A stretch of 64,000 nt of DNA, from the NCBI RefSeq assembly GCF_021462415.1, contig NZ_JAKEDS010000006.1:1-64000 (forward strand). Reading direction: 5' to 3'. This document shows, one piece after another, positions 18,929 to 55,534 of the stretch. Numbering within the stretch: the stretch's first letter is position 1; the number at the start of each line of letters is the position of its first letter. The DNA is from Rhodohalobacter sp. 614A. GTDB lineage: Bacteria; Bacteroidota; Rhodothermia; Balneolales; Balneolaceae. The position numbers were made by a program, and so were the translations under genes. Below the pieces are notes generated by a model. The model was not told the DNA's origin. It searched no databases and worked only from the letters and a program-made list of their open reading frames with translations.

Positions 18929-18967
18929 TTTTATTGTCCTCATTTATCTTTTTTGATTTAAAAATGG

Positions 18968-20321: not shown

Positions 20322-20338
20322 CTTAAATGAACCTTAAA
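20322..20338. promoter_or_regulatory. Copper-regulon direct repeat before cusC-cusB-cusA
   Basis: CTTAAA-TGAAC-CTTAAA. The half-sites are 11 bp apart, the spacing bound by OmpR/PhoB-type regulators. It lies 74 bp upstream of cusC. Confidence 0.75.
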
Positions 20339-28578: not shown

Positions 28579-30402
28579 TTATGCATAATCTTGTCCATAA
28601 ATATTGCCGTCTTCATCGGCTACCTGTACCACGCGGAACATGCCCCGCTCCATGTGGTAGAGAATGTGACAGTGAAAGGCCCACCGGCCTTTATCTCTCG
28701 GTGTAACAAGGGCAGATATGCGCTGTGCAGGCTGCAACAGCAATGTATGCTTGCGCGGGTTATAAATACCATTGCCGTTCTCCATCTCCATCCACATGCC
28801 GTGCAGGTGAATGGGGTGCTCCATCATGGTGTCGTTGACCAGCGTCAGCCGCAGGCGTTCGTTGTGTTCGAATTCGATGGGTCCCTTCACCTCGTGAAAC
28901 TGCTTCCCGTCGAACGACCACATGTAGCGCTCCATATTGCCGGTCAGGTGCAGTTCAACTTCACGTTCGGCCGGCCTTTCGTCGATATTTGGCTCCAGGC
29001 TTTTAAGATCGTTATAAACCAGCACATTGCGCCCATCGTTGCCCAAGCCAATGCCAGGTTCGCCCATCCGGTTGAACTGATTTTGTGCGATGGCTGCCGC
29101 GCCCGGTCCGTGTTTGTCAGGACCGTGCTTGACGGGCGTTTCTTTCATGGCGGACATGTTCATGTCGCTATGATCCATGTTCCCGTGATCCATATCCCCA
29201 TGATCCATCTCCATCATGCTGTCACCTTCCATGTCCATTCCGTCCATGTCCATCATCATACCCATATCTCTATGGCTGCGTTTGGGCCGGGGACGAAGTT
29301 CAGGTACTGCCGCCATCATGTCTTTGCGGGGCGCTATAGTACCGCGGGCATAACCGCTGCGGTCCAGCGATTCGGCAAAGATGGTATATGGCTTTTCATC
29401 TTTTGGTTCGACGATCACATCATACGTTTCTGCAATACCAATGCGAAATTCCTCGATAGAGACGGGTTTCACGTTTTGGCCATCGGCCTGTACCACGGTC
29501 ATATCAAGGCCGGGAATGCGCACATCAAACGCGGTGGTTCCTGCAGAGGCGTTAATAAAGCGCAGGCGCACCTTTTCTCCTTTCTTAAACAGGGGGTTCC
29601 AGTTCGATTCCGGGCCGTGACCGTTCATCAAGAAAGTATATGTGGCCCCGGTAATGTCGAGTAGGTCAGTGGCACTCATGCGCATTTGACCCCATGAGAG
29701 GTAATCTTTTATGGTACTTCCAAAACCTTTCTTCTTTACATCATTAAGGAATTCGCCTACATCTCGGCGCTGGTAATTATAGTACCCCTCCATCTTGACA
29801 TTTTTTTCGAGCACGTTGTATGGATTTTCAAAGGTCCAGTCGGAGAGTACCACCGGATACTCGCGGTCATACTCTACCGGATCTTCGCTGGCCGGATCAA
29901 TAATCATGGGTCCGTAGTGGCCGAGCTGCTCTTGCAGGCCAGAGTGACTGTGATACCAATAAGTCCCGCTTTGCCGGACTGGGTACCGGTATTCAAAGGT
30001 TGTTCCCGGTTTAATACCGTCAAAGCTGACCCCCGGGACACCATCCATCTGGAACGGCAGCAGGATGCCATGCCAGTGAATGGATGTTGGCTCATCTAAT
30101 TCGTTGGTAACACGAAGCAACACGTCCTGTCCTTCTTTCAGGCGAATAAGAGGGGCAGGGACGCTGCCGTTAATGCCAATGGCTTCTCCTCGCTTTCCAT
30201 CGACCATATGTGGCATTTTGCCAATGGTCAGATCGATGACATTATCGGGTCCTTGGGGGGTTAAAACATCTCGTTTCTCACTGCCGAAGCCCGCCAAGGC
30301 GTAGCCCGGCAAAATAGAACTTACGCCTGCAATGGCAGCCATCGAGGCGGAATAGCGCAGAAAGGTGCGGCGGGTGATACCGTTAGTTTTATTTTCACTC
30401 AT
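28579..30402 (-). CDS. copA: CopA/PcoA-type multicopper oxidase
   Basis: About 607 residues from ATG 30402 (the ORF extends to 30474, but the Tat signal fixes the start). RRTFLRYSASMAA is a twin-arginine signal. Copper-ligand groups are IHWHGILLPF, WYHSHS, HPIHLHGMW and the final HCHILYHMERGMF. Between domains lies a Met/His/Asp-rich stretch (MGMMMDMDGMDMEG, then repeated MDHGDMDHGNMDHSDM), able to load several copper ions. It is the first gene after the operator at 30477 and probably leads a transcription unit down to 22756. Confidence 0.94.
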   Translation of the reverse strand: MSENKTNGITRRTFLRYSASMAAIAGVSSILPGYALAGFGSEKRDVLTPQGPDNVIDLTIGKMPHMVDGKRGEAIGINGSVPAPLIRLKEGQDVLLRVTNELDEPTSIHWHGILLPFQMDGVPGVSFDGIKPGTTFEYRYPVRQSGTYWYHSHSGLQEQLGHYGPMIIDPASEDPVEYDREYPVVLSDWTFENPYNVLEKNVKMEGYYNYQRRDVGEFLNDVKKKGFGSTIKDYLSWGQMRMSATDLLDITGATYTFLMNGHGPESNWNPLFKKGEKVRLRFINASAGTTAFDVRIPGLDMTVVQADGQNVKPVSIEEFRIGIAETYDVIVEPKDEKPYTIFAESLDRSGYARGTIAPRKDMMAAVPELRPRPKRSHRDMGMMMDMDGMDMEGDSMMEMDHGDMDHGNMDHSDMNMSAMKETPVKHGPDKHGPGAAAIAQNQFNRMGEPGIGLGNDGRNVLVYNDLKSLEPNIDERPAEREVELHLTGNMERYMWSFDGKQFHEVKGPIEFEHNERLRLTLVNDTMMEHPIHLHGMWMEMENGNGIYNPRKHTLLLQPAQRISALVTPRDKGRWAFHCHILYHMERGMFRVVQVADEDGNIYGQDYA

Positions 30403-30476
30403 TTGACCGTTTAAATTCTTGTTTTTAATACTTAAGAGTTTGTTTGAAAAATTCAGATAAAACTTACAAAACAAAC

Positions 30477-30493
30477 CTTAAATCAAGCTTAAA
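30477..30493. promoter_or_regulatory. Copper-regulon direct repeat before copA
   Basis: CTTAAA-TCAAG-CTTAAA, 75 bp upstream of the copA start. Confidence 0.78.
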
Positions 30494-31142: not shown

Positions 31143-31754
31143 TTAATTATGTCCTCCACCCATCATTCCTCCGTGACCTCGACCACCTTCTTCCCAATGA
31201 TCGTTCATGCCATTGCCGTTCATATCCACGAAACCGGGCCCATGCCATGTTGGGCTGCCGTTCTGGGCCAGGTCACAAATTCCATCCTGGTTTTCATCAA
31301 CAAAGTCATGTTCTCCCCAATGGGTTTCTTCCTCCATATAGTCATTCACATGATTATCATTTTCATCATGGAACCGCATTCCTTCATGTCGCTGGTGCAT
31401 CGGAAGGGATTCATCCCAATAGTCACAGATACCATTGTTGTTTTCGTCAATGAAACCGGGCCCATGCCACGTTGGGCTTCCATCCTGGGCATAGTCACAA
31501 ATACCATCATTGTTTTCATCAACAAAGGAGTGTCCGGGATCAGAAGAATTAGTAGTGGTAGTGCTGGAAGCTTTCCCAAATCCGTCATCGTGAGTTGTTT
31601 GCTCTACAAAATCGTTAATATCATTTGAGTTTTCGTCTATATACATTGGAAATATCGATTCAATCTCTTCAACTTCAGGTTCAGTAGAGGATTTGCATCC
31701 AGAAAGTATTAACATCGTGAAGAGGGTTAAGGAAAGCAGTGTAGAGATTTTCAT
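31143..31754 (-). CDS. Lipoprotein with repeated Asp/Asn loops and His motifs
   Basis: 203 residues with lipobox LSGCKS. The mature chain contains about six loops of the type VDENNDGICDY, similar to the calcium loops of EF-hand/dockerin proteins, each followed by His-bearing stretches. The unit SPTWHGPGF occurs twice and joins two loops. The tail is HWEEGGRGHGGMMGGGHN. The loop order suggests a string of metal sites; Ca(II), Cu(II) or both are possible. I know no named family with this layout. It is divergent from the response regulator, 50 bp from a shared operator. Confidence 0.7.
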   Translation of the reverse strand: MKISTLLSLTLFTMLILSGCKSSTEPEVEEIESIFPMYIDENSNDINDFVEQTTHDDGFGKASSTTTTNSSDPGHSFVDENNDGICDYAQDGSPTWHGPGFIDENNNGICDYWDESLPMHQRHEGMRFHDENDNHVNDYMEEETHWGEHDFVDENQDGICDLAQNGSPTWHGPGFVDMNGNGMNDHWEEGGRGHGGMMGGGHN

Positions 31755-31803: not shown

Positions 31804-31820
31804 CTTAAATCAAGCTTAAA
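31804..31820. promoter_or_regulatory. Copper-regulon direct repeat, shared by divergent genes
   Basis: CTTAAA-TCAAG-CTTAAA. It lies 50 bp before the Asp/His lipoprotein (minus) and 73 bp before the response regulator ATG (plus). Confidence 0.75.
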
Positions 31821-31856: not shown

Positions 31857-31892
31857 TAGATTTGATTAATCGATAATGAATTGTCAGCTATT

Positions 31893-32615
31893 ATGTGGAT
31901 CTTATTGGTTGAAGACGAAAAACAACTTGCAAACTCCTTAAAACGCGGACTCGAAGAGGAGGGACATGTGGTAGAGATGACCCACGATGGGGAGGAAGGA
32001 GAACTGCACGGTTTTGCCAATGATTACGATATGGTGATACTGGACTGGCGGTTACCACATCGCGACGGTAAACAAATTTTGGAAAGCTGGCGAAAAGAGG
32101 GCCGATCTTTCCCGGTATTAATGCTCACGGCACTGGGAGATCTGGATCACAAAGTGTCTGGTTTGGATGCGGGAGCCGATGATTATATGGGCAAACCCTT
32201 CTCTTTTGATGAACTTTTGGCCAGAATTCGTGCGCTTGGACGTCGTTCTTCAGAAATGACACAAACTGAAATCCTTTCAGTAGGCCCAATTGAACTGGAT
32301 GCCCGTAAACACAAAGTACAAATTTGCGGGTATGAACTTATGTTAAGGCCAAAGGAATTTATTCTTTTAGAGCTCTTCCTCAACAATCCAGAAAATGTTT
32401 TTTCAAAAACACAAATTGCCGAAAGGGTCTGGGGGTCCGCTTATTATGTAAGTGATAACACTATCGAAGCCACTCTCTCCACACTTCGTCAAAAACTGGC
32501 TGAATCATTCAAAGAATGTGATGAGATTTTATTAAAAGATACATCAAAAATTGTCGAAACAATTCGTGGAGCGGGGTATCGCTTAAATAGCCGTTTAATT
32601 AAGATTGAAGAGTAA
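31893..32615 (+). CDS. OmpR-family response regulator (CusR/CopR-like)
   Basis: 240 residues from ATG 31893 (the upstream TTG at 31881 adds nothing conserved). Receiver domain: acidic pocket VEDE, phospho-acceptor Asp51 in VILDWRLP, Thr in MLTALG and Lys in GKPFSFDE. The C-terminal winged helix (RPKEFILLELFLNNPENVFSK ... TIRGAGYRL) is of the OmpR/PhoB class, which binds direct repeats with about 11-bp period. It is the only such regulator in the window and sits in the middle of the operators, so it is the best candidate to bind CTTAAA-N5-CTTAAA. It overlaps the kinase gene. Confidence 0.93.
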   Translation: MWILLVEDEKQLANSLKRGLEEEGHVVEMTHDGEEGELHGFANDYDMVILDWRLPHRDGKQILESWRKEGRSFPVLMLTALGDLDHKVSGLDAGADDYMGKPFSFDELLARIRALGRRSSEMTQTEILSVGPIELDARKHKVQICGYELMLRPKEFILLELFLNNPENVFSKTQIAERVWGSAYYVSDNTIEATLSTLRQKLAESFKECDEILLKDTSKIVETIRGAGYRLNSRLIKIEE

Positions 32616-34053
32616 AATAGTGGCAGGCATTACAACCTATTTCGACAGATTCTCGATTTCCAAAAGGCTTGCTTTTTGGTATGGATTAAGCCTCTTCATC
32701 ATGCTTAGTTTGTTTGGTTATTTTTTGTACGAGAGCTTCCACCAGTCCATCCATCATAACTATGATCGTCACCTTCGGTTTGAGGCCGAGCAGCTTCTCT
32801 CCTATATCCATACCAGCAACGATTCACTCTCGATTGACCTGACCGGCTACAGCAGGAACGCCGCACTTGAAAGCGGAATCGAATATGGAACCTATGTTCG
32901 GCTCTATAACGAGGAAGACAGCCTGATCTATGAAAGCCCCAACTTATTAGGGGTAAAACAGCCGTTAGACACAGAAATACCGGATACGCACGTGGAATAT
33001 TCCTTCAGCAGCCAATGGCAGGACCTTCCCGCCCGCACTCTTTTTTATCCGATCATGAATGAGAATAATGAGTTCTGCGGCTGGCTGGAGGTCACCGGTT
33101 TTGAGTGGACGCTGCACGAAGAACTGAGTCGCTTCAGACAGTACTTATTGGTTCTCATTGCTATAAGCGTGGTTTTTTCAATTATGGGAGGGTATTGGCT
33201 CTCCAGAAGAGCGTTGTCACCAGTGGCTTCCATTAATGAAGCGGCGAAGTCTATTACAGCTACTGATCTGGATAAACGAATACCGGTTAACTACCAGGTT
33301 AAAGATGAGTTAACCGACCTGGCTGAGACCTTCAATATCATGCTGAACCGCCTTCAAAAAGGTTTTGAGCGTGAAAAAAGATTCACTTCAGATGCGGCAC
33401 ACGAACTTATGACGCCGCTTTCATCCATGCGCAGTGATGCAGAGATCATGCTCCGTAAACCGCGATCCAAACAGGATTACCAGGAAACCATTGAGCGCAT
33501 GTTGACGGAAGTAAGAAAGATGAGCGAAATGGTTCACCTTCTGCTGCAACTTTCAAGAGTTGAGTCGGTACATCGCCCGAAGCCGGATATTGTGAACATC
33601 AGCCGCATCACTGAAGCGGTCGTTATTAAACATCAAGAAAAAATGGAAGCCAGGAATCTTGACATTAAAACGCAGATTGATTCAGATTTGCAGGTACGTG
33701 CACATGAAGCTTATCTCGAAGAGGTACTCAATAATCTGCTTCAAAATGCGATAAAATACACACCGCAGGGCGGAGAGATAAAATTAGAACTGCAGCAAAG
33801 CAGCGGTAAAGCGGTTATCCACTTGAGTGACACTGGAATTGGTTTTGACGAAGAGACCAGAAAACACTTGTTTGAGAGGTTTTTCCGTTCGAACGAATCG
33901 AACGTTCAGGAACAATCAGGAAGTGGTTTGGGATTACCACTTGTCAAAGCAATCGTTGAATTATATAACGGCCGGATTCGCGCGTACAGTGAAGGAGTTG
34001 GAAAAGGAAGTACGTTTGTTATTGAATTACCTCTGGTCGAAACAAACACATAA
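32605..34053 (+). CDS. Sensor histidine kinase (CusS-like)
   Basis: 482 residues from TTG 32605; a GTG at 32620 with GAAGAG before it is equally possible. Two membrane helices (about 23-41 and 178-198) enclose a periplasmic sensor of about 135 residues, the size seen in CusS/PcoS. HAMP follows, then the phospho-acceptor FTSDAAHELMTPLS (His266), the N-box NNLLQNAIKYTP, and G-boxes SDTGIGF and GSGLGLPLVKAI. The ligand is inferred to be periplasmic Cu(I)/Ag(I) from context; the sensor domain shows His clusters near its start (HQSIHHNYDRH). Confidence 0.93.
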   Translation: MKSKIVAGITTYFDRFSISKRLAFWYGLSLFIMLSLFGYFLYESFHQSIHHNYDRHLRFEAEQLLSYIHTSNDSLSIDLTGYSRNAALESGIEYGTYVRLYNEEDSLIYESPNLLGVKQPLDTEIPDTHVEYSFSSQWQDLPARTLFYPIMNENNEFCGWLEVTGFEWTLHEELSRFRQYLLVLIAISVVFSIMGGYWLSRRALSPVASINEAAKSITATDLDKRIPVNYQVKDELTDLAETFNIMLNRLQKGFEREKRFTSDAAHELMTPLSSMRSDAEIMLRKPRSKQDYQETIERMLTEVRKMSEMVHLLLQLSRVESVHRPKPDIVNISRITEAVVIKHQEKMEARNLDIKTQIDSDLQVRAHEAYLEEVLNNLLQNAIKYTPQGGEIKLELQQSSGKAVIHLSDTGIGFDEETRKHLFERFFRSNESNVQEQSGSGLGLPLVKAIVELYNGRIRAYSEGVGKGSTFVIELPLVETNT

Positions 34054-38855: not shown

Positions 38856-39611
38856 CTATCTTTCTTTGATGTGTGAAGGATAGGCCAGATTCAGTTGATC
38901 CAGTCTTTCAACTATCTTCTTGATCACCATAAAATTCCGGTACCATTTTTGGTCGGCAGGCACCACGTGCCAGTCGGCCGCCTCGCAGCATTGTTCAAAA
39001 ACTTCCCGGTAGGCCTGCATGTAGTTGTCCCAATGGCTGTGGGCAACAAAATCGCCGGGATCGTATTTCCATCGTTTTCGCGGATCTTCCAGTCGTTGAT
39101 TGAGCCGCTTTATCTGCTCTTCTTTGGAAATATGGAGATAAAATTTAAGGACAACCGTGTTGTTCTCCTCTTTCAGCAGGTGCTCGAATGCGTTGATAGA
39201 GTCATAACGCTTTCGAAGCTGTTCTACAGGCACCAGGTTTTTAACATGCGACACAATAATATCCTCGTAGTGCGAACGGTTAAAAATATGGATCATTCCT
39301 TTGGGCGGCACGTGTTTGTGAATGCGCCAAAGAAAATCATACTGCTGTTCTTCCTTCGAAGGAACCTTCCATGATTTAACATGGCACCCGGCAGGGTTAA
39401 CTCCCGAAAATACATTTCTGACCGTTCCGTCTTTGCCGGAAGCATCCACTCCCTGGAAAATTGCCAGCAGGGCATGTTGACCATCGGCATAAAACACATT
39501 TTGCAACTCGGTCAATCTTTTTTTGAGGGCCTTGGTTTCCTTTTTTATTTTAGATTTGTTGACAGAATCAGGTGGTTGTGAAGAAAGAGTATAAAACGGC
39601 TCAGGTTTCAT
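38856..39611 (-). CDS. ppk2: Polyphosphate kinase 2 family protein
   Basis: 251 residues. Walker A is FQGVDASGKDGTV, the lid/Walker B region is IFNRSHYEDIIV, and the conserved WKVPSKEEQQYDFLWRIH and RKRWKYDPGDF segments define PPK2. These enzymes make or use polyphosphate to phosphorylate nucleotides. It lies 2 bp after a glutaredoxin-like gene. Polyphosphate is known to chelate copper and to help metal export, so the location is sensible, although no CTTAAA site precedes this pair. Confidence 0.92.
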   Translation of the reverse strand: MKPEPFYTLSSQPPDSVNKSKIKKETKALKKRLTELQNVFYADGQHALLAIFQGVDASGKDGTVRNVFSGVNPAGCHVKSWKVPSKEEQQYDFLWRIHKHVPPKGMIHIFNRSHYEDIIVSHVKNLVPVEQLRKRYDSINAFEHLLKEENNTVVLKFYLHISKEEQIKRLNQRLEDPRKRWKYDPGDFVAHSHWDNYMQAYREVFEQCCEAADWHVVPADQKWYRNFMVIKKIVERLDQLNLAYPSHIKER

Positions 39612-39613
39612 GA

Positions 39614-39949
39614 TTAATGATCTCCGGGTGATTTTGTACCATAGTATATTTGATCAACCTGTTGTCTCCAGCGGATCAGATCAAGAGTTTCATCAACTTT
39701 TGACAAAGACGGTTTTTCGTAATAGGTGCCGTTGATATCGAGAATAGGCAAGATCAGGGGATTGCCAAGTCCAGCCACCAGTTCTTTTTCTTTTTTGGAA
39801 TCGAATCGTAGATCGAAAAATGTAAACGACCATTTCTCTTCCCTAAGCAGATTGACCAGTTTGCGGAGGTAGTCGCACCACTCCTTGCAATATATAATTA
39901 TTGTGGTTTCGTTTTTTTTATCAGGGCTACTATCTGTTTGGTTATTCAT
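39614..39949 (-). CDS. Glutaredoxin-like protein with CxxxC motif (copy 1)
   Basis: 111 residues. Strand IIIYCKEWCDYLRKLVNLL places Cys21 and Cys25 at the glutaredoxin active site, but with three residues between them instead of two. NPLILPILDINGTYYEKPS supplies the cis-proline and the glutathione-binding loop. About 60% like the copy at 42943. The spacing would prevent a normal dithiol helix turn, so it may bind metal or glutathione rather than act as a standard reductase. Confidence 0.75.
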   Translation of the reverse strand: MNNQTDSSPDKKNETTIIIYCKEWCDYLRKLVNLLREEKWSFTFFDLRFDSKKEKELVAGLGNPLILPILDINGTYYEKPSLSKVDETLDLIRWRQQVDQIYYGTKSPGDH

Positions 39950-40150: not shown

Positions 40151-40825
40151 TTAGTCTGGGTTGTCTGAAGAACCGCTGGGTGACCGTTGCAGAAACTGTT
40201 TCCATTTGCCTTTCACCGGAAGGAAGGCCGGGACGTTCTGCTTGTACTGGAGATACTCTTCTCCAAACTCCTCGATCACTTTCTTCTCTTCCCTTTTGGC
40301 AAGCAGGACATAAGCGATAACGATGACCGGGAACAGGCCAACGGAAAATATAGTCGGCCAGTGAATGACCCCCTCTCCAAAAAGCCCGATAAACAACCCG
40401 GTGTATTGGGGATGCCTGACCAGGCTGTACAGTCCGTCGGTGGCCAGCCTGTTTTCCTGTTTGGCGTGATACAGCTGCCGCCAGCCCTGGATAAAAATGC
40501 CAAATCCACCAAAAAGAAGGATATAACCCACGATCATCGAGATCATCATACCCGCTTCACCAACGCCCACTAAAGTAGACCAAAGGTTGGCGTTTAGATC
40601 ACCACTACCACTATCCAATCCCAGGAACCGGACCATCAGATAAATGGTAAGCGGGAAGCCGTACATCTCTGCATACAGTGCGATGATGAAGCCCTGAATC
40701 AATCCGGCTCCCATCCATTCCCGCCATGTTTTGGGTGCCAGATATTTGTATAAAAGCCAGGACGCAATAACGATCACAAAAAGCGCTATAATCCAGGCAC
40801 CTGAATGTTCAAATCCTCTTTCCAT
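40151..40825 (-). CDS. Isoprenylcysteine methyltransferase-like membrane enzyme
   Basis: 224 residues with five or six membrane helices and the PEMT/ICMT core LVRHPQYTGLFIGLFGEG followed by AKREEKKVIEEFGEEY. This group uses SAM to methylate small or lipid substrates in the membrane. It is the last gene of the SHOCT-GAPDH unit (62 bp after GAPDH), so it probably shares the 42230 operator. Substrate unknown. Confidence 0.75.
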   Translation of the reverse strand: MERGFEHSGAWIIALFVIVIASWLLYKYLAPKTWREWMGAGLIQGFIIALYAEMYGFPLTIYLMVRFLGLDSGSGDLNANLWSTLVGVGEAGMMISMIVGYILLFGGFGIFIQGWRQLYHAKQENRLATDGLYSLVRHPQYTGLFIGLFGEGVIHWPTIFSVGLFPVIVIAYVLLAKREEKKVIEEFGEEYLQYKQNVPAFLPVKGKWKQFLQRSPSGSSDNPD

Positions 40826-40887: not shown

Positions 40888-41919
40888 CTAAATGAACCGT
40901 TGCGTAACGCCCAGCGAACGGTTTGTTTTATCAATCGATTTTTTGGGGTCCGATTCGATGCCGGTCAGCGCTCGGATGGCGTCGATGGTTTCAGGAATCA
41001 CAATCGCCTGGTTATCGACCAGGTAGGCGTAGTATAGCTCGTCACCTTCCACTTTGAGCATATCCTCCCAGATGGCCACTTCGTACATATCCCCATGGGG
41101 ACGACCCAGATCCAGCATAAGTTCCTTGACGGCATTATTGGCCGAAAGATCATCGCTCATATTGATAAATGCGGTTCGCATTGAGGTACTAAAAGCCTTC
41201 AGCACGTCCTCCTTAGATACTTCTTTGGTCAATTGCACGGTCCAGTAATGCATATGGGAAAGTGTTTGGGGTACTTTTACGGCGGCAGTTACCACATCCA
41301 GTTCGGGATCTACGCTCTGGGCATCCGGGCCCTGGTGACTGGGAATTTCCGGTTCAGGAACCATTGTATTCATGATACCGTTTTTGTGGCTTTCCCATGG
41401 GTCGGTGGCTCGGCGCAACAGCGTGCCACGTGCTTTATTCAGTAATCCCGCTCGTTTTAATGCGCTGAGGGTCCGTACGATAGAGGTGGTGTTGCAGGAG
41501 ACCACGCGGGTACTTTCCCGATTTAAAGCAGAGGCATAATTATTTTCCGCGCTGAAGGAATGCCCGGTCGTCTCATGCTTTTCCCCGCCCTGCACGATAA
41601 ACTTCACACCTGCCGTTTTATACCGTTCGGCATTTTGCGCGCCGAATTTTTTCGGAGCACAATCCACCACCACATCAGCGGCCTCCAGCAAATCATCCAG
41701 GCCTCCGGTCACCGAGATATTCTGATTGACCATCGCTTTGCGGCCTTCGTCCGTATTGGCAAATATCGGATACCCTTTGGCGGCTGCGGCTTTAATTCTC
41801 CAGTCGGCAGCTACATCACCGATGCCCACCAGTTCCATATCTTCTTGCAAGGTTACTGCTTCCGCCACCCGTTTTCCGATGACGCCATATCCGTTTACGG
41901 CTATTTTGATCTTTTCCAT
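40888..41919 (-). CDS. Type II (archaeal-type) glyceraldehyde-3-phosphate dehydrogenase
   Basis: 343 residues of the type II GAPDH family, common in archaea but rare in bacteria. It has the N-terminal NAD(P) site IAVNGYGVIGKRVAEA, the catalytic Cys142 in VVSCNTTS and the downstream LLRRATDPWESHKNGIMN and MHYWTVQL segments. It would interconvert glyceraldehyde 3-phosphate and 1,3-bisphosphoglycerate like the ordinary enzyme. Copper inactivates the usual GAPDH through its active-site cysteine, so a second isozyme under a copper operator could keep glycolysis running in stress. It is 17 bp after a SHOCT gene that carries the operator. Confidence 0.9.
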   Translation of the reverse strand: MEKIKIAVNGYGVIGKRVAEAVTLQEDMELVGIGDVAADWRIKAAAAKGYPIFANTDEGRKAMVNQNISVTGGLDDLLEAADVVVDCAPKKFGAQNAERYKTAGVKFIVQGGEKHETTGHSFSAENNYASALNRESTRVVSCNTTSIVRTLSALKRAGLLNKARGTLLRRATDPWESHKNGIMNTMVPEPEIPSHQGPDAQSVDPELDVVTAAVKVPQTLSHMHYWTVQLTKEVSKEDVLKAFSTSMRTAFINMSDDLSANNAVKELMLDLGRPHGDMYEVAIWEDMLKVEGDELYYAYLVDNQAIVIPETIDAIRALTGIESDPKKSIDKTNRSLGVTQRFI

Positions 41920-41936: not shown

Positions 41937-42152
41937 TTACTTGTTTAGTTTTAAAACTTTCTTACGCTCCTCAAACTCTTCGCGTTCTATCTCTCCACGG
42001 GCAAACCTCTTAGTCAATATATCCATTGCGTCTTCCCGGTTATCACTATCGCGCCAATATGGAATCAAATCCAAAAAAACCAAAAGGAGTCCTATAGAGA
42101 TCACAATCCACCAGATCCAATGCATGCCGAAAAAATGATGATTGTAAAACAT
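41937..42152 (-). CDS. SHOCT-domain membrane protein 2
   Basis: 71 residues: MFYNHHFFGMHW then a membrane helix (IWWIVISIGLLLVFLDLI), then the SHOCT helices (AMDILTKRFARGEIEREEFEER). The HH-x-x-x-M-H opening could bind copper. Nearly the same as the copy at 44154. It leads the unit SHOCT-GAPDH-methyltransferase, 78 bp from the operator. Confidence 0.85.
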   Translation of the reverse strand: MFYNHHFFGMHWIWWIVISIGLLLVFLDLIPYWRDSDNREDAMDILTKRFARGEIEREEFEERKKVLKLNK

Positions 42153-42229: not shown

Positions 42230-42246
42230 CTTAAATAAAGCTTAAA
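42230..42246. promoter_or_regulatory. Copper-regulon direct repeat between divergent units
   Basis: CTTAAA-TAAAG-CTTAAA, 78 bp before SHOCT 2 (minus) and 113 bp before the five-helix protein (plus). Confidence 0.75.
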
Positions 42247-42942: not shown

Positions 42943-43278
42943 TTAATAAGTATTGTCCCCGGATGGTTCTTTACCATAGTAAGTTTGGTCGACTTTTTGT
43001 CTCCAGTGGGTTAACTCAAGCTGATTTGTGACCTCTGCAAACGATGGTTTTTCATAATAGACACCATTGATCTCTAGTATGGGTAAAATCAGCGGATTAC
43101 CCAGCTTTGATATCAACTCGTTAGCTTTTAATGTATCAAACCGAAGATCAATAAATGTGAAATTTTGTTGTTGCTCCCACAGAAGATTAACTACGTTTTT
43201 TAAATATTCACACCATTCCTTACAGTAAATAATGATGGTTGTACTTTTTTCTATGTGGTTATTATTGGAATCATTCAT
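42943..43278 (-). CDS. Glutaredoxin-like protein with CxxxC motif (copy 2)
   Basis: 111 residues, the same layout as copy 1: IIIYCKEWCEYLKNVVNLL with Cys19 and Cys23, LILPILEINGVYYEKPS and a C-terminal HWRQKVDQTYYG. It is translationally coupled to the ATP-cone nuclease (ATGA overlap) and so falls under the 44437 operator, whereas copy 1 is coupled to ppk2. Two separate copies with the same rare CxxxC spacing suggest the spacing is functional. Confidence 0.75.
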   Translation of the reverse strand: MNDSNNNHIEKSTTIIIYCKEWCEYLKNVVNLLWEQQQNFTFIDLRFDTLKANELISKLGNPLILPILEINGVYYEKPSFAEVTNQLELTHWRQKVDQTYYGKEPSGDNTY

Positions 43279-44132
43279 CTTTTCACTGAATTATTTTTAA
43301 CATTACATATATCCATGGCTTCCTCAAAGACCTTGTTCATGGTATGATTATCAAGCCCAATACTCTTAAGAACTTGCTTGTCCTCACATATCTGCTTGCA
43401 GAAGACAACATTTTGTTCCAAAAGGAGCTTTTTCTTTTGATTGCTTAGGGTTGACAGGCTGGTAATCGGATGAAGATGTACATGGCTGATTAGGTCTTTT
43501 AGTCCGTTATTTTCCGGATAATCCCAGCTTAACAGTTTAAGGCCTGCACACTTGCCATACCGCAGGGCGTCTGTGGTGAAACGGGTGTTGGTAACTACCC
43601 AGCCCTGGTGTTGCTTATCTTCGTGACCGGGTTGGCTCCTCCAGTTTCTTTCCACATCCTTGAATCGTGATTGAATGTAAAGTGGGATTTTTACATTACA
43701 TTTATGGCCTTTCCGGTTGTGAAATTTACACTCGATCATAAAATGTTCGTCGTCTTTTTCTGCGATAACATCAATTTCATGGGAGACGCAGTTCCCGTCA
43801 ACAATAACTCTGGTATCAGTTTGATAACCGAGCCTGTTTAGAAGTTCTCCGATAAATTTTTCAAAAGGATAGCCGGAAGGCCCTAATTCCAGCAGGGCTT
43901 CTTTTAATTTATATCTGCCAGCCGAAGAATTTGAGTATTGGCTGAGTTGCTTAAAAGCTTCTTTATATATTTTTTCAGTCGTAATCCCTTCAAATAGAAT
44001 CCGCTGGATAGAGTGAATAATCTTGTTTGTAATCTGTTGATTGGCACCTGCTTTTCTGAGAGAATGGCGAAGCTTATTCTCATCAAAAGGTTCACTTTCT
44101 CCGGACGCTTTCATTACGTTGAATGTTGCCAT
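43275..44132 (-). CDS. ATP-cone domain fused to an Mrr-like restriction endonuclease
   Basis: 285 residues. Residues 1-90 are an ATP-cone (MKASGESEPFDENKLRHSLRKAGA, SNSSAGRYKLKEALLELGP), the nucleotide-sensing module known from ribonucleotide reductase and NrdR. Residues 95-200 hold a PD-(D/E)xK nuclease core: EIDVIAEKDD with Asp121, and FMIECKFHN with Glu134 and Lys136. The fusion would let ATP or dATP levels control a DNA-cutting domain. Cysteines in the C-terminal third (NVVFCKQICEDKQ) may sense metal. It is cotranscribed with SHOCT 3 and the glutaredoxin-like gene, under a copper operator, which is a surprising place for a nuclease. Confidence 0.8.
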   Translation of the reverse strand: MATFNVMKASGESEPFDENKLRHSLRKAGANQQITNKIIHSIQRILFEGITTEKIYKEAFKQLSQYSNSSAGRYKLKEALLELGPSGYPFEKFIGELLNRLGYQTDTRVIVDGNCVSHEIDVIAEKDDEHFMIECKFHNRKGHKCNVKIPLYIQSRFKDVERNWRSQPGHEDKQHQGWVVTNTRFTTDALRYGKCAGLKLLSWDYPENNGLKDLISHVHLHPITSLSTLSNQKKKLLLEQNVVFCKQICEDKQVLKSIGLDNHTMNKVFEEAMDICNVKNNSVKR

Positions 44133-44153
44133 TTTTTTTAGGCCGTTTGTTGA

Positions 44154-44369
44154 CTACTTACTTTGCTTTAGAATTTTTTTTCGCTCTTCAAACTCCTCGC
44201 GCTCAATTTCTCCTTTGGCGAATCTTATCTTTAAAATATCCATGGCATCTTCTTTCAGATCATTTTTAGGTCGAAAAGGTATAATATTGAAAGCAATCAG
44301 CAGAATAATTATGATTGAAATGACCCACCAGAGCCAGTGCATGCCTATAAGATGATGATCGTAGAACAT
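44154..44369 (-). CDS. SHOCT-domain membrane protein 3
   Basis: 71 residues: MFYDHHLIGMHWLWW, one helix, then AMDILKIRFAKGEIEREEFEER. Clearly a duplicate of SHOCT 2. It heads the unit SHOCT-nuclease-glutaredoxin, 68 bp from the operator at 44437. Confidence 0.85.
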   Translation of the reverse strand: MFYDHHLIGMHWLWWVISIIIILLIAFNIIPFRPKNDLKEDAMDILKIRFAKGEIEREEFEERKKILKQSK

Positions 44370-44436
44370 CGTTCTGATGTTTAAATTGCTGTTGTTTAAA
44401 GTGTGTTAAAGCTGCTTACAAAATAGGAATGGGTAT

Positions 44437-44453
44437 CTTAAAACAAGCTTAAA
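44437..44453. promoter_or_regulatory. Copper-regulon direct repeat before SHOCT 3 and the nuclease
   Basis: CTTAAA-ACAAG-CTTAAA, 68 bp upstream of SHOCT 3. Confidence 0.75.
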
Positions 44454-44476: not shown

Positions 44477-45556
44477 TTACTGATTTAACAGAGCTTGCCG
44501 TTCCAAAAGGAGATTATTTAAATCTTTCTCAGTAACAACTCCTAATAGTTTGTCCTCTCGAATAACCGGATACAGTGATTGATGTTTTGGAGAACTATTT
44601 TCAATTAATTCTACCAGTAATGTTTCCGGATGCAAGGTAATTACATCTTCCTGGATCAGTTCTGCTGCGGGGTATTCTGTTTCACCGGCTTGCAAAGCAT
44701 TGATGACAGACTTGAAAGATATCAACCCAATAAAAATATCCCCGTTGATTACAACCAATTCTGAAGATTGATTTTTTAGCATAACGGAAGCCGCGTGAGA
44801 AACAGTAGCACTCAAGGATACGCTTTGAAAGTTTCCGGTCATGATATCCTTTACCTTAATCTCTTTTAGGGATTCAGTCATGGAAACCTGTCGTGATTCT
44901 GCACCGGCTCCAAGAAATACAAAAATTCCAATAAATAATAGAAATGGATTGTAGAAGAGTCCAAACATGGTAAAGGCGATTGCCAGTAATTGACCGACTG
45001 AAGCTGCGATTTGAGTGGCTTTGGCTCGCTTCATCTTAAAAGCCAAAAGTGCCCGAAGCATCCGGCCTCCATCCATAGGAAAAGCGGGTATCAAATTGAA
45101 CACTACAAGAATAATATTAATGATCAGAAGATCGGACAGGAAATTACTCCCAGTAACATGATGGCTGATATCTATTTGACCCTGGCCTGTAATCAATAAC
45201 AGAGAAAATAACACAACTGCAATCACTACATTGACCGCCGGTCCGGCAGCGGCAACAACCAATTCTTGTTTAGGATCTTCGGGCATTCGTTCAAGCCTTG
45301 CCACCCCGCCAATGGGCAATAAATTGATGTCTTTTGTGTCAATTCCATACTTACGGGCTGCCAAAGCATGTCCAAATTCATGTAGTGTTACACAGGCAAA
45401 CAGGAAGATCAGAAAAAAGAGGCCCATTAAAATTTCATTCAAACCGTGGCCTTGTCGCAAATGCATCCAGGACAGCCAGATGACCAGCAGGATAAAGGTC
45501 CAGTGAATAAAGACTTTAATTCCTGCCGGTTTACCGATGTATAAGGACCATTTCAT
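44477..45556 (-). CDS. Site-2 (M50) intramembrane protease with CBS pair
   Basis: 359 residues. Zinc site HEFGH (about residues 60-64) and the distal NLIPAFPMDGGRMLRAL motif lie in six membrane helices, followed by two CBS domains (about residues 230-355: VKDIMTGNFQSVSLSATV and QEDVITLHPETLL). CBS-bearing M50 proteases of this kind (SpoIVFB-like) sense nucleotides or ions. It is downstream of the small gene at 45618 and so could share the degenerate operator at 45834. Substrate unknown; an anti-sigma factor or a small SHOCT protein is possible. Confidence 0.9.
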   Translation of the reverse strand: MKWSLYIGKPAGIKVFIHWTFILLVIWLSWMHLRQGHGLNEILMGLFFLIFLFACVTLHEFGHALAARKYGIDTKDINLLPIGGVARLERMPEDPKQELVVAAAGPAVNVVIAVVLFSLLLITGQGQIDISHHVTGSNFLSDLLIINIILVVFNLIPAFPMDGGRMLRALLAFKMKRAKATQIAASVGQLLAIAFTMFGLFYNPFLLFIGIFVFLGAGAESRQVSMTESLKEIKVKDIMTGNFQSVSLSATVSHAASVMLKNQSSELVVINGDIFIGLISFKSVINALQAGETEYPAAELIQEDVITLHPETLLVELIENSSPKHQSLYPVIREDKLLGVVTEKDLNNLLLERQALLNQ

Positions 45557-45617: not shown

Positions 45618-45770
45618 TTACCCGTTTGTGTATTGGTGCCTGGTAGTCCTATAGGTCGTTGGGTGATTTTTTTCACGTACTCTTAGCGGAATTTCCTGTA
45701 GTCCGGACTTCCCCAGCAGTTGATCGATCTTATCGATAAGATTGCGAAGTAGGTTTTTCAAAGTTTCCAT
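45618..45770 (-). CDS. 50-residue basic protein, small gene under a copper operator
   Basis: ATG 45770 to TAA 45618. The first 20 residues form a leucine-rich amphipathic helix (NLLRNLIDKIDQLLGKSG), followed by a basic, His-bearing tail (PLRVREKNHPTTYRTTRHQY). It is too short for ordinary ORF calling, but it sits 64 bp after a degenerate operator and 61 bp before the M50 gene. The family is not recognised. Confidence 0.5.
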   Translation of the reverse strand: METLKNLLRNLIDKIDQLLGKSGLQEIPLRVREKNHPTTYRTTRHQYTNG

Positions 45771-45833: not shown

Positions 45834-45850
45834 CTGAAATGAAGCTTAAA
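45834..45850. promoter_or_regulatory. Degenerate copper-regulon repeat before the 50-residue gene
   Basis: CTGAAA-TGAAG-CTTAAA, one mismatch to the exact form, with the same spacing and AAG. Confidence 0.55.
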
Positions 45851-46023: not shown

Positions 46024-47973
46024 TTAACCCCATCGCAGCCGCATACCGTTTAGAATTACGGCCATCACCGACAGCTCATGAATCAACATACCGCCCGCCA
46101 TATGCACCGACCCTGCCATTACACCCGCCAACAGTGCGGTCACTGTAATCAGAGCAATTACTACATTTTGATGTATATTGCGTAACGTCTTTTTTGAAAG
46201 ACGAAGTGCCTCGGGTATTTTCATCAGGTCATTGGCCATCAGTGCAATATCAGCCGTTTCGATAGCCACATCGGTGCCGGCTGCTCCCATGGCAATGCCG
46301 ATATCTGCGGTAGCCAACGCCGGGGCATCATTGATGCCGTCACCGATCATAGTCACTTGGTACCCTTGCTGTTGCATTTCAATGATGATATCGTTTTTGT
46401 CTTCCGGCAGAATGCCCGCATGCACCTCCGTGATCCCTGTCTCTTCGGCAATCGCTTCGGCCGTTGGCCGGGCATCACCAGTAAGCATCGCAATACGTTC
46501 AATGCCATTTTCACGCAGTTTTGATATCATTTTTGGAGCATCCGGGCGCATTTGATCAGCTATCCCAATAGCTCCAAGTAGTTTATTATTTCGTGCTACC
46601 AGAACCACGGTTCTTCCTTTATTCGTCAGACTCCGTATCTCTTTATTAATGTTTTCACTAATAGAGATCCTCTTTTGTTTCAGAAACTCAGCTTTCCCTA
46701 CATAGATATGATCGTCGCCCAATACCGCCTCAATTCCTTGTCCGGTATAAGATTCAAACTCATCGGGTTCCGGAATTTGGCCCGATTTTTCCGCTTCCGT
46801 TATAATGGCCTCCGCCAGCGGATGCTCGGAGGCTGATTCGGCTATGGAAGCCCAATAGAGAAGTTCTTCACCTTCCAATGGCAGCGACTCATTATTTCGA
46901 TCAGACAAAGAAACCGTATGAACTGCCGGAAACTCTTCCTGGCCACCACCGGCTACAGCAATGGCCCTTGAAAAATAAATAATCTCGATAACGCCCGGTT
47001 TTCCTTCTGTCAGGGTACCGGTTTTATCCAGTGCAATGGCGGTAACTTTACCTGCATTTTCCAAATATTCACCACCCTTGATAAGAATTCCTTTTTTCGC
47101 AGCATTGCCTATACCCGTTATGACGGAGATTGGGGTAGAAATCACCAGAGCCCCGGGGCAGCCGATCACCAGCAGCGTCAGCGCCAGCTCCAGGTCCCAG
47201 GTAAACAAGTAGGATACGATACTCAAGCCCACAATTCCGGGGGTATACCACCGGGCAAATCGTTCGATGAAACGTTGTGTAGGAGCTTTTTCTTCCTGGG
47301 CTTCCTCCACACGCCGGATAATTTTTGCCAACGTAGTGTCTGCACCCGCCTTGGTTGCCTTCACAAAAATACGACCGTTTTTATTGATGGTACCCGCATA
47401 CACTTCCGATCCGGTCTGCTTTTCGGTCGGGATCGGCTCTCCGGTAATCGCACTTTCGTCTATCGACGTAGTACCGGATTCCACCAGGCCGTCAACCGGA
47501 ATTTTTGATCCGGGTTTTACCAACACCCGCATACCTTCCTGAACCTGCCGGGCCGGAATTTCCTTCCGTTCTCCACCATCTATAACTATTGCAGTTTCCG
47601 GGGCCATATTAATCAGTTCTTTCAGGGTATTGCGGGTCTTGCTCATCGTTCGGGCTTCCAGCCAGCCGCCCAGCAGAAACAGAAAAGTAACGGCCGCAGC
47701 CTCCCAGAATACGCCGATGAAGATCCCGCCCGTGGCAGCGATGGCCACCAGCAGTTCTATATTAGTATGCCGGTTCCGCAGCCCCTGCCAGGCCCGGCGG
47801 GCGATCTCAAACCCGGCCGTCAGCGTGGCCAGCAACATCAGGACGTCAAACAGCCGGGGCAAAGCCCCAAAGAAATTTGCGGCCCATCCGGCTGCGATGA
47901 GCAGGCCGCTGACGATCAGTAGTGCTTTCTTCCGTGTTGTTGCATTACGCACTAGTTTTTGAAGTAATTTCAT
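46024..47973 (-). CDS. P1B-type metal ATPase with CPG motif
   Basis: 649 residues. The membrane metal site reads VIGCPGALVISTP, with one cysteine then Gly instead of CPC, CPH or SPC. DKTGTLTEGKPG holds the phosphorylated Asp, SEHPLAEAI is the HP motif and MIGDGINDAPALATADIGIAMG the hinge. The N-terminus has no HMA domain but a separate HMA gene lies immediately upstream (12 bp), acting as a split sensor/chaperone. It has no CTTAAA site and may serve another metal (Zn, Cd or Co), or copper through another regulator. Confidence 0.92.
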   Translation of the reverse strand: MKLLQKLVRNATTRKKALLIVSGLLIAAGWAANFFGALPRLFDVLMLLATLTAGFEIARRAWQGLRNRHTNIELLVAIAATGGIFIGVFWEAAAVTFLFLLGGWLEARTMSKTRNTLKELINMAPETAIVIDGGERKEIPARQVQEGMRVLVKPGSKIPVDGLVESGTTSIDESAITGEPIPTEKQTGSEVYAGTINKNGRIFVKATKAGADTTLAKIIRRVEEAQEEKAPTQRFIERFARWYTPGIVGLSIVSYLFTWDLELALTLLVIGCPGALVISTPISVITGIGNAAKKGILIKGGEYLENAGKVTAIALDKTGTLTEGKPGVIEIIYFSRAIAVAGGGQEEFPAVHTVSLSDRNNESLPLEGEELLYWASIAESASEHPLAEAIITEAEKSGQIPEPDEFESYTGQGIEAVLGDDHIYVGKAEFLKQKRISISENINKEIRSLTNKGRTVVLVARNNKLLGAIGIADQMRPDAPKMISKLRENGIERIAMLTGDARPTAEAIAEETGITEVHAGILPEDKNDIIIEMQQQGYQVTMIGDGINDAPALATADIGIAMGAAGTDVAIETADIALMANDLMKIPEALRLSKKTLRNIHQNVVIALITVTALLAGVMAGSVHMAGGMLIHELSVMAVILNGMRLRWG

Positions 47974-53384: not shown

Positions 53385-55436
53385 TTAGCGTTCGATTTTA
53401 AGGAATCGGGCATTAATAGCCACAATTACCGTACTTAGCGACATCAACACAGCACCCAGTGCCGGACTCAGAATAATTCCGTACGTGTATAAGACACCTG
53501 CTGCCAGAGGAATTGCAAATGCATTGTAGCCCGTTGCCCACCAGAGGTTCTGAACCATCTTTCGGTAGGTGGCTTTAGCCAATCCGATGAGTGAAGCCAC
53601 GTCTTTCGGATTACTTTGGGTAAGAATGATATCTCCCGTTTCGACTGCCACATCCGAACCGGCTCCAATGGCAATACCAACATCAGCCTGTGCAAGGGCG
53701 GGAGCATCGTTAACGCCGTCGCCGGTCATGGCTACTTTAAGTCCACGGTTCTGAACTTCTTTGACTTTGGCGGCTTTTTCTTCTGGAAGTACTTCGGCAA
53801 AGAAATCGTCCAAACCCAGCTCTTTGGCAACATAAGCGGCAGTTTGTTTATTGTCACCAGTGAGCATGATACATTGAATTCCCATCGATTGCAGACTTTG
53901 GATAGCTGCTTTCGAATCTTCGCGAATGGTATCCCCCAGTGCAATAGCACCTTTCAGTTGATTGTCAATCAATACAAATACAACTGTTTTTCCCTGCCCC
54001 GAAAGTTGTTCGTATTCAGTGGTTGGCAGAGCAATGTTCTGTTCTCGAAGATAACCGGGACTAACCACTTTGATCTGTTTGCCATCTACCCGGCCTTCAA
54101 TACCTTTTCCTGTGATGGAGTTGAACTCTTCTACTTTCATCAACCCGTCCGTGGCCTTGACGATACCCCTTGCAATAGGATGTTCAGAGTTTTGTTCAAG
54201 GGAACCGGCCAATTTCAGGATTTCATCCTTCTCATAGCCATTGAACGTAAGTACGTCGGTTACACCAAACTCTCCGTGTGTCAGTGTCCCTGTTTTGTCA
54301 AAAATGATGGCTCCAAGATTTCTGGCTTCTTCAAAAGCCGTGCGATTGCGAATTAAGAAACCATTTTGAGCCGCTAAACTTGTAGAGACTGCTACCACCA
54401 GAGGTACAGCCAGTCCTAAAGCATGGGGGCAAGCAATGACCATAACGGTAACCGTTCGCTCCAAAGCAAAAACAAAATCCTGTGTTGTAAAGGCAGTCCA
54501 CGCAAAGAAGGTTACCGCCCCGGCCCCAAGTGCTACAATGGTCAACCAAAAAGCGGCTCGATTAGCTAAATCCTGTGTACGGGATTTACTCTCCTGAGCT
54601 TGCCGTACAAGATTGATAACCTGAGAGAGGAAGGAATCTTCCCCGGTTCGATTGACCTCGATGGTCAGCGACCCTTCACCATTGATAGAACCACCAATTA
54701 CCTCATCCCCCTGTTTTTTGGAGACCGGCTTTGATTCCCCGGTCATCAGAGATTCATTAACTGAACTCTTTCCCTCAACAACCAAGCCATCAGCGGGGAT
54801 CTTTTCACCTGGCTTAACAAGGACTTTTAATCCTTTTTCCAGCTCTTCAAGAGGAACATCCCGTGTGGATCCATCGTCCTGTACAACATGTGCTTCCGAT
54901 GGCATCAGTTTGGCAAGTTCCTCCAGGGCACGAGAGGCACTCATCACAGATTTCATTTCTATGTAATGCCCGATAAGCATGATATCTACGAGTGTAGCCA
55001 GCTCCCAGAAAAAGACTTGTCCCTCAACGGCAAAAACGACCAACGTACTATATACATAAGCAGCCGTAATTGCGATGCCAATCAGGGTCATCATCCCTGG
55101 TTGTCGCTTTTTTAGCTCATTATAGAGTCCACTCAGAAAAGGCCAGCCACCATAAAAGAACACGATGCTTGAAAGCAAGAATGATATATAGCTGTCACCA
55201 GCAAATCGAAGCGAATCTCCAAGTCCAAGGAATTCCTGAATCATTGGTGACAAGATCAGAATAGGAATCGTAAGCGCAATTGAAATCCAAAACCGCTTCA
55301 GGAAGTCTTCGGCCATGTGGGCATGATGTTCGGCATGTCCCCCGGAGTGCTTATGCTCTTTCTGGTTGTGGTGTTGATGATCGTGCCCTTTTTTGTGTGA
55401 ATGAGCATGACCGTTTTGATCGTGAGAATGTTCCAT
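53385..55436 (-). CDS. copB: Copper-translocating P1B ATPase with CPH motif (CopB type)
   Basis: 683 residues. An N-terminal His-rich stretch (15 His within the first 42 residues) replaces HMA domains. The transport site is VIACPHALGLAVPL, the CPH signature of P1B-3 pumps that export Cu(I)/Cu(II) or Ag(I). FDKTGTLTHGEFG carries the phosphorylated Asp, SEHPIARGI is the HP motif and MTGDGVNDAPALAQADVGIAIG the hinge. Three SHOCT proteins and the PII-like protein belong to the same regulon. Operator 55518 is 82 bp upstream. The symbol refers to the ATPase CopB, not the outer-membrane CopB at 27756. Confidence 0.95.
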   Translation of the reverse strand: MEHSHDQNGHAHSHKKGHDHQHHNQKEHKHSGGHAEHHAHMAEDFLKRFWISIALTIPILILSPMIQEFLGLGDSLRFAGDSYISFLLSSIVFFYGGWPFLSGLYNELKKRQPGMMTLIGIAITAAYVYSTLVVFAVEGQVFFWELATLVDIMLIGHYIEMKSVMSASRALEELAKLMPSEAHVVQDDGSTRDVPLEELEKGLKVLVKPGEKIPADGLVVEGKSSVNESLMTGESKPVSKKQGDEVIGGSINGEGSLTIEVNRTGEDSFLSQVINLVRQAQESKSRTQDLANRAAFWLTIVALGAGAVTFFAWTAFTTQDFVFALERTVTVMVIACPHALGLAVPLVVAVSTSLAAQNGFLIRNRTAFEEARNLGAIIFDKTGTLTHGEFGVTDVLTFNGYEKDEILKLAGSLEQNSEHPIARGIVKATDGLMKVEEFNSITGKGIEGRVDGKQIKVVSPGYLREQNIALPTTEYEQLSGQGKTVVFVLIDNQLKGAIALGDTIREDSKAAIQSLQSMGIQCIMLTGDNKQTAAYVAKELGLDDFFAEVLPEEKAAKVKEVQNRGLKVAMTGDGVNDAPALAQADVGIAIGAGSDVAVETGDIILTQSNPKDVASLIGLAKATYRKMVQNLWWATGYNAFAIPLAAGVLYTYGIILSPALGAVLMSLSTVIVAINARFLKIER

Positions 55437-55517: not shown

Positions 55518-55534
55518 CTTAAATTAAGCTTAAA
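55518..55534. promoter_or_regulatory. Copper-regulon direct repeat before the CPH ATPase
   Basis: CTTAAA-TTAAG-CTTAAA, 82 bp upstream of the ATPase start. Confidence 0.78.

Follow-up and report, generated by a model that had tools for sequence, protein, structure and literature searches.

The stretch of DNA analysed here (64,000 nucleotides, hereafter the window) is part of a 123,378-bp contig (C6) of Rhodohalobacter sp. 614A, whose genome totals 4.69 Mb. Our subject is a set of three genes on the minus strand, running from 44369 down to 42943, which likely form one operon. The first gene (44154-44369) encodes a SHOCT protein of 71 amino acids (PF09851, E = 6.4e-07), with a hydrophobic N-terminal stretch recognized by eye and a C-terminal SHOCT domain. 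The second gene (43275-44132) encodes a nuclease of 285 amino acids, in which an ATP-cone is joined to a PD-(D/E)xK core (Mrr_cat) and an AF1548-like C-terminal domain. The third gene (42943-43278) encodes a glutaredoxin-fold protein of 111 amino acids with the motif C19-K-E-W-C23-E-Y-L26, referred to below as the CKEWC protein. The three open reading frames (ORFs) lie where a first-pass annotation of the bare sequence had placed them, and the coupling that it proposed between the nuclease and CKEWC genes takes the form of a 4-bp overlap (ATGA). This overlap is present in five of the seven loci that carry the pair, and an 8-bp gap is found in the other two. No NCBIfam family matched any of the three proteins at E <= 0.001.

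An exact copy of the operator TTTAAGCTTGTTTTAAG is located on the minus strand at 44437-44453, 68 bp ahead of the SHOCT start. Its pattern, TTTAAG-CTTNN-TTTAAG, contains TTTAAG twice in the same direction at a period of 11 bp, and direct repeats of this period are the type of site recognized by OmpR/PhoB-type regulators. There are nine exact copies in the window and none elsewhere in the genome, so that the exact operator reported for the operon in the first-pass annotation stands above chance. Three further sites in the genome have one mismatch (20322 and 45834 in the window, and one on contig C1) and 23 have two mismatches; only exact and one-mismatch operators were used, and two-mismatch sites were treated as background. 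Among ten chosen Balneolaceae genomes, eight contain exact operators, 44 in all, against 0 for a reversed control. The two operator-free genomes (G023 and G030) have no CKEWC relative.

It is also evident that the operator stands in a constant relation to a putative promoter. Among 38 sites from the window and the related loci L153-L161 (30 exact and 8 of a slightly looser form), a TAtnTT-like box resembling a -10 element follows at a fixed distance, with A at +13 in 28 sites and T at +16 in 29. Some of these islands are near copies; after removal of duplicates, the proportions are 24 and 26 of 34 distinct sequences. The fixed spacing suggests that the repeat takes the place of the -35 region, as it would with an activator. 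Nine of the 11 operator sites in the window lie 50-121 bp ahead of the tested gene start. The exceptions are the site at 30477, which is 3 bp from a mechanically called TTG start, and the site at 22521, which is 563 bp ahead of the tested gene and 86 bp ahead of a small ORF (22268-22435, 55 amino acids). A second small ORF (45618-45770, 50 amino acids) begins 64 bp behind the operator at 45834.

The genes that share the operator include a multicopper oxidase, a copper ATPase, an RND efflux set, a DUF302 gene, a SHOCT-led type II glyceraldehyde-3-phosphate dehydrogenase (GAPDH-II) gene and the nuclease operon. Exact copies precede the copper-resistance multicopper oxidase (operator 30477-30493; gene 28579-30474, minus strand; TIGR01480, 788 bits, over the cut-off) and the copper-translocating P1B ATPase (operator 55518-55534; gene 53385-55436, minus strand; TIGR01511, 647 bits, over the cut-off), and another, on the minus strand (31804-31820), lies between the gene of the response regulator and that at 31143-31754. 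Copies with one mismatch are found ahead of the genes for RND efflux, membrane fusion and outer membrane channel proteins (operator 20322-20338; genes 14292-20248, minus strand) and, on the minus strand at 45834-45850, ahead of the 50-amino-acid ORF and an M50-CBS protease gene (44477-45556). The exact copy at 42230-42246, also on the minus strand, precedes a second SHOCT gene (41937-42152, by Pfam), which is the first of a minus-strand row. It is followed by GAPDH-II of the archaeal type (40888-41919; NF003251 and TIGR01546, over cut-off), an isoprenylcysteine/phospholipid methyltransferase-like protein (40151-40825; PF04191, PF04140), a paralogue of the CKEWC protein (39614-39949, 60% identity) and, directly downstream of the paralogue, a class II polyphosphate kinase (PPK2; 38856-39611; PF03976, and TIGR03709 over the cut-off).

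The candidate reader of the operator is an OmpR-type response regulator (31881-32615, plus strand, by Pfam), encoded together with a sensor histidine kinase whose best model is of the heavy-metal type (32605-34053, plus strand). By its context, the pair is of the copper type. The combination of an OmpR-type regulator and a kinase with a multicopper oxidase, a copper ATPase and RND efflux is shared with the CusR/CopR copper regulons, which differ from the window in that its operator is TTTAAG-N5-TTTAAG and that its island adds GAPDH-II, PPK2, the nuclease and glutaredoxin-like proteins. Judging from the shared operator, the SHOCT-nuclease-CKEWC operon very probably belongs to this metal/copper regulon, and its neighbours make copper the likely main inducer. 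The first-pass description of the operon as copper-controlled is therefore borne out as far as an operator common to copper genes is concerned, whereas the copper signal itself is read from the neighbouring genes. The core of that description holds and exceeds chance, namely that a single operator within a metal regulon stands ahead of both a nuclease with a nucleotide sensor and a protein of redox type. Pair and operator are found again in other Balneolaceae, and the case for a regulon is strong.

Three Pfam domains were found in the nuclease above their cut-offs: the ATP-cone (PF03477, 31.8 bits; cut-off 25.8), Mrr_cat (PF04471, 36.3 bits; cut-off 21) and AF1548-like_C (PF22357, 25.6 bits; cut-off 23.9). 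The first two are those named in the first-pass annotation, and the third is additional. Its catalytic assignment (D121, E134 and K136) was correct, and the conservation on which it had staked its reading is complete, as all three residues are invariant among the 155 full-length homologues (the set leaves out rows that align over less than about 250 residues or whose match is interrupted by stops). H118, E119 and C135 are also invariant, 152 of the 155 rows retain C115 and the same number C195, and K8, T52, Y56 and K77 of the ATP-cone are kept in 142-152. The cysteines by the active site could make the nuclease sensitive to redox state or to Cu(I); they are kept in non-metal contexts as well.

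A sequence search of the PDB (E <= 1) returned a sole match, 1y88, which is AF1548 of Archaeoglobus fulgidus (E = 4.5e-35). In an AlphaFold2 model of the nuclease (25 rows, pLDDT 90.9), residues 83-279 match AF1548 (Z = 21.1), and residues 1-80 superpose on the cones of NrdR and ribonucleotide reductase (for NrdR, Z = 10.0-11.7 and root-mean-square deviation 1.4-2.1; best match 9a6n_B, 1.5 over 78 residues). The next matches (Z of about 9-12) are restriction enzymes, EndoMS-type repair nucleases and CRISPR ancillary nucleases, in a VIA-align list where the non-appearance of a family does not exclude likeness. Sequence and model both place the nuclease in the AF1548 family (PF22357 with PF04471 and PF03477). 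The two proteins share the PD-(D/E)xK and C-terminal domains at 37-38% identity (183 residues/187 columns); the solved chain of 1y88 has 199 residues, is matched from residue 23 and is titled as of unknown function. We know of no metal regulon or glutaredoxin-like partner for AF1548. Compared with known systems, in which the cone is joined to ribonucleotide reductase or to the DNA-binding part of NrdR, the cone in the window is fused to a nuclease. AF1548 and its relatives were predicted to be restriction endonucleases in 2007, with the residues 38D, 51E and 53K (PMC1821046), whose spacing equals that of D121, E134 and K136; this prediction was the only statement of a role that we found for the family. 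In PMC4390871, the term restriction endonuclease belongs to the title of a reference. A literature search of titles and abstract openings turned up no paper in which an ATP-cone is part of a nuclease or of a glucoamylase. Mrr type IV restriction enzymes carry an Mrr N-terminal domain beside Mrr_cat; none was found in the nuclease, for which Pfam (E <= 0.001) gave only the ATP-cone, Mrr_cat and AF1548-like_C domains. From domains and model, it is fairly probable that the nuclease is active and gated by a nucleotide, ATP or dATP. The family, with its predicted activity, was thus already known, and the copper-regulon setting and the glutaredoxin-like partner would make the window protein a variant of it.

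The third protein required a change of register. The first-pass annotation took CKEWC as a CxxxC version of the CxxC active site, which proved to be mis-registered. In a hidden Markov model (HMM) profile alignment with glutaredoxins of solved structure, IYCKEWCEYLKK falls opposite the profile consensus IYTKNYCPYCKK (mixed case), which places C23 on the catalytic glutaredoxin cysteine, L26 on the second cysteine and C19 on a threonine. In the structural model (pLDDT 80.2), C19 ends strand 1 (residues 15-19) and C23 directly precedes helix 1 (residues 24-35), and the alignment and model together rule out an altered CxxC site. C23 is accordingly read from the alignment as the glutaredoxin nucleophile (C-E-Y-L) in a monothiol register, with C19 as an extra cysteine. 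Foldseek and VIA-align give a glutaredoxin/NrdH fold (NrdH 1h75, Z = 10.2), and the score with the PF00462 glutaredoxin model is 21.6 bits (E = 2.5e-4), below the cut-off of 22.9. The fold, the position of C23 and Pro66 are common to the CKEWC protein and to NrdH, Grx3 and mycoredoxin; it differs from these glutaredoxins in that the second active-site cysteine is replaced by Leu or Met and that Cys19 is added at the end of strand 1. C19, C23 and Pro66 are kept in 11 of 11 CKEWC rows. Glutaredoxins have either a dithiol CxxC or a monothiol CGFS motif. Neither is present here, and all 11 rows show C-[EDHK]-Y-[LM], with Met at the last position in one row. Copper proteins of the Sco type combine CxxxC with a conserved distal His; a Sco-like copper site was rejected, since C19 and C23 are invariant, yet the 11 rows contain no invariant His.

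Relatives of the CKEWC protein are rare. Among 394 phylum genomes, 11 gave a match (8 clear), and among 58 genomes of relatives, 5 did so (3 clear); the weak matches (G034, G106 and G207 in the phylum set, G034 and G049 among the 58 relatives) were not counted. Among the 11 clear CKEWC genes, seven follow a nuclease gene and four do not (39614-39949, L159, L160 and L161), and these four likewise have GAPDH-II, PPK2 or copper genes as neighbours. An Emticicia plasmid has a more distant match (30% identity, E = 9e-4).

The nuclease gene is followed by the CKEWC gene in seven loci, the window and L153-L158. The first-pass annotation proposed a search for the same three-gene order in other genomes; the exact order SHOCT-nuclease-CKEWC is present in the window, L153 and L154. 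In L155, L156 and L158, GAPDH-II and methyltransferase genes lie between the SHOCT and nuclease genes, and L157 begins at a contig end. The operator ahead of the operon is exact in five of the seven loci and has two mismatches in L156; in L157 its place falls at the contig end. The seven paired nucleases form one group in a quick tree, with an SH-aLRT value of 94, slightly short of the 95 that the tool takes as its mark. The window nuclease shares 94% identity with that of G141, which belongs to another genus, versus only 52-62% with the full-length nucleases of its own genus, and genome G302 contains a second, diverged nuclease copy. These results suggest that the nuclease-CKEWC unit probably moves between genera. 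The contig itself encodes ParA-like and Rep3 proteins (the latter running off the end), a relaxase, a coupling protein, a CagE/TrbE/VirB4-type protein, a secretion ATPase, TrbI and CagX, and on these partition, replication, mobilization and type IV secretion genes it reads as a putative conjugative metal-resistance plasmid. When 19.8 kb of the island was compared with plasmids by megablast, only short pieces of P-type ATPase genes were matched, in four records.

In L155-L158, the gene directly after CKEWC encodes a 509-amino-acid fusion of an ATP-cone and a glucoamylase-family enzyme (PF10091, in a Pfam run on L155; L155:10344-11873, L156:10344-11873, L157:1247-2776 and L158:10315-11844). This fusion is likely, from its domains, to be a second polymer-degrading enzyme under the same kind of sensor. 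Beyond the Balneolaceae, plasmids of Pontibacter and Criblamydia carry the nuclease in a row with a beta-CASP RNase-type protein, an AMP-phosphorylase-like enzyme and a phosphoribosyl pyrophosphate (PRPP) synthase (L053:1972-6597 and L054:11995-16602), and also have multicopper oxidase or CusA-type genes. The AMP-phosphorylase-like enzyme reaches 480 bits with the AMP-specific model (cut-off 535) and is over the cut-off of a broader model. The row, which is also present in part in 33 of the 80 nearest nuclease loci, would describe a route that leads from nucleic acid to bases and to ribose phosphates. One flavobacterial island (L097:82-19977) contains GAPDH-II, a class I aldolase, 6-phosphofructokinase, a 2-hydroxyacid dehydrogenase, a USP-like protein, the nuclease module and PPK2; with a P-type ATPase whose start is His/Met-rich by eye, it has a near-complete spare glycolysis adjoining metal export.

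We propose that the SHOCT-nuclease-CKEWC operon is one of the outputs of a two-component regulon of the copper type that is carried on the plasmid. From the anatomy of the sites, the response regulator at 31881 would bind the 11-bp repeat in place of a -35 box and activate the operon. Under copper stress, Cu(I) would poison GAPDH and PRPP synthase, and the ATP and nucleotide pools would shift. The N-terminal ATP-cone would read ATP/dATP and gate the PD-(D/E)xK core, which would degrade nucleic acid and recycle it into nucleotides, and the spare GAPDH-II and polyphosphate kinase of the same island would sustain energy metabolism. The CKEWC protein would most likely keep cysteine enzymes reduced or buffer cytosolic Cu(I). 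Salvage of energy and nucleotides is suggested by the plasmid gene row, by the ATP-cone-glucoamylase fusion and by the presence in the islands of GAPDH and PRPP synthase, both targets of Cu(I): GapA is inhibited by Cu(I) (PMC6350627), as is Prs, and cells become less sensitive to copper when they have more prs (PMC10249872). The genome has a further, higher-scoring GAPDH gene on contig C1, about 2 kb from a copper-ATPase-like gene (C1:1448086-1452269). We put the whole reading, a copper-induced, ATP/dATP-gated, nucleic-acid-degrading enzyme in an energy and nucleotide salvage arm, at a rough probability of 0.42; the salvage role of the nuclease, taken singly, is offered more tentatively.

Several observations weigh against this proposal. 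With up to two mismatches allowed, the reversed control gave 58 matches in the genome versus 35 for the operator pattern, which is why the two-mismatch sites were treated as background. Both the regulator (TIGR01387, 190.6 bits; cut-off 279.2) and the kinase (TIGR01386, 250.4 bits; cut-off 292.55) score below the curated heavy-metal cut-offs. Neither the beta-CASP partner (best match 27%, partial) nor the AMP-phosphorylase-like enzyme (best match 28%) has a close relative in the genome, so that the salvage chain would be incomplete here. In S. aureus, over-expression of gapA brought no gain in copper tolerance (PMC6350627; data not shown there), which speaks against a simple benefit of a spare GAPDH.

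Further points on this side come from the wider nuclease family, which is present in 42 of 58 relatives, in 73 of 394 phylum genomes and in 2 plasmids among 72,556 records. Neighbours were tallied in the nearest loci (the best 80 of at least 580 nuclease relatives, picked by similarity) and in an even phylum sample consisting of all 46 full-length loci outside the order; matches covering less than 40% of the query and the partial nuclease hits G379 and G407 were left out. The locus sets overlap in part (L117 = L198, L124 = L202, and some of L062-L141 are also among the G genomes). In the nearest 80 loci, a CopA relative is found in 44, against a rough chance level of 4% for such a stretch, beta-CASP within 10 kb in 50, AMP-phosphorylase-like and PRPP synthase genes in 33 each, GAPDH-II in 28 and PPK2 in 8. 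In the even sample, a CopA relative is near the nuclease in 3 of 46 loci, which is chance level (P of about 0.29, rough model), AMP-phosphorylase-like and PRPP synthase genes are in 2 each, and RND genes in 6, CRP-type regulators in 7, USP-like relatives in 14 and beta-CASP in 29. A general copper link of the nuclease family, which the similarity-chosen loci suggested, was dropped on this comparison. The first-pass annotation held that homologues without any metal or redox link would speak against its idea, and this is partly the case, as most even-sample loci lack a copper-pump neighbour. Within the Balneolaceae, the link is intermediate: L033-L052, which comprise Balneolaceae and order-level relatives, show it to CopA in 6 of 20 loci, eight further Balneolaceae loci (L238-L245) have CopA in 4 and beta-CASP in 3, and the six order-level loci (L046-L051) have no tested metal gene. 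From the even-sample counts, it is the beta-CASP protein that constantly accompanies the nuclease, and a link to copper characterizes certain islands.

The same counts bear on what is being degraded. The beta-CASP/RMMBL protein of the 29 even-sample loci is encoded on the same strand at no more than about 1.4 kb, centre to centre, and together with the 50 of the nearest 80 loci and the recurring USP-like relatives this would fit ATP-gated RNA decay, in which the nuclease and beta-CASP protein would form a general-stress RNA turnover pair and the version on the copper plasmid would have lost its partner and act alone. We consider this unlikely but the best placed of the alternatives; the lack of a close beta-CASP relative in the genome tells against it. 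Slightly less probable is DNA repair, in which the nuclease would cut or resect copper-damaged DNA and the ATP-cone would tie cutting to the supply of deoxynucleoside triphosphates. Its core does resemble the EndoMS/NucS type (2vld_A, Z = 10.7; 5gke_A, Z = 10.5), but restriction and CRISPR ancillary nucleases give similar Z values, and the recurring partners are beta-CASP, USP-like and metabolic proteins, in tallies that did not include repair genes.

Can2, Card1 and Cdn1 have a ligand-sensor domain followed by a PD-(D/E)xK core. The window nuclease shares this layout and core with them (Z = 9.4-10.4), which is consistent with a plasmid-borne nuclease that acts against phages or plasmids under metal stress; the first-pass annotation had suggested a metal-induced defence system. 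There are also weak PADLOC matches to PD-(D/E)xK models (best CARF_PDDEXK, 7.3e-6), and the restriction endonuclease prediction for AF1548 and its relatives points the same way (PMC1821046). However, the sensors of Can2, Card1 and Cdn1 read cyclic oligoadenylate according to the entry titles, and no CRISPR context was seen at the window locus. PADLOC gave no match for the CKEWC or SHOCT proteins, and the nuclease satisfied no described defence system model. No relatives were found in 50,697 phage records or in IMG/VR scans, no DNA methylase is among the scanned window genes near the nuclease, and the nuclease is widespread in ordinary genomes with metabolic neighbours. Of the defence idea, the weak matches to nuclease models stand and no viral connection emerged from these scans, and we regard it as improbable. 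Equally improbable is hitchhiking, the capture of the nuclease operon by a plasmid without any copper function, which would suit a mobile-type replicon and homologues mostly without metal neighbours but not the exact operator kept in five of the six assessable loci, whose nucleases have diverged from the window nuclease by as much as about 28%.

If the salvage proposal holds, its consequences extend beyond one operon. The apparent co-induction of a nuclease and a redox-type protein with copper genes suggests that the copper response may include a rescue arm for the cell interior, so that copper resistance would comprise, beyond pumps, a way around poisoned metabolism, and ATP-cones would gate polymer breakdown in addition to ribonucleotide reductase and NrdR. 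The recurring beta-CASP neighbour, together with the spare GAPDH and the PPK2 that accompany the nuclease in a copper regulon, suggests a role other than restriction for the AF1548 family. It is conceivable, though rather doubtful, that the copper regulons of Balneolaceae and the metal islands of Flavobacteriia carry a cytosolic metabolic-bypass arm made up of spare isoenzymes for reactions poisoned by Cu(I) (GAPDH-II in the window, PRPP synthase in the wider islands), ATP-cone-controlled polymer breakdown (the nuclease on nucleic acid and, in four islands, the fusion on glucan) and a thiol-guarding glutaredoxin-like protein, with the ATP-cone as a general energy gate on catabolic enzymes. The operator search covered Balneolaceae, and the Flavobacteriia islands are joined to this picture by gene content.

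Two other loci of the window were noticed. Heavy-metal P-type ATPases usually have a CPC or CPH motif. The ATPase encoded at 46024-47973 has, by eye, CPG and adjoins an HMA gene and a DUF6448 gene; the window operator scan found no operator copy upstream of it. Further along the replicon, the genes at 57621-58847 and 57022-57615 comprise a match to the PADLOC model PD-Lambda-2_B (7.4e-19) and an adjoining P63C-domain gene, which is possibly a defence pair.

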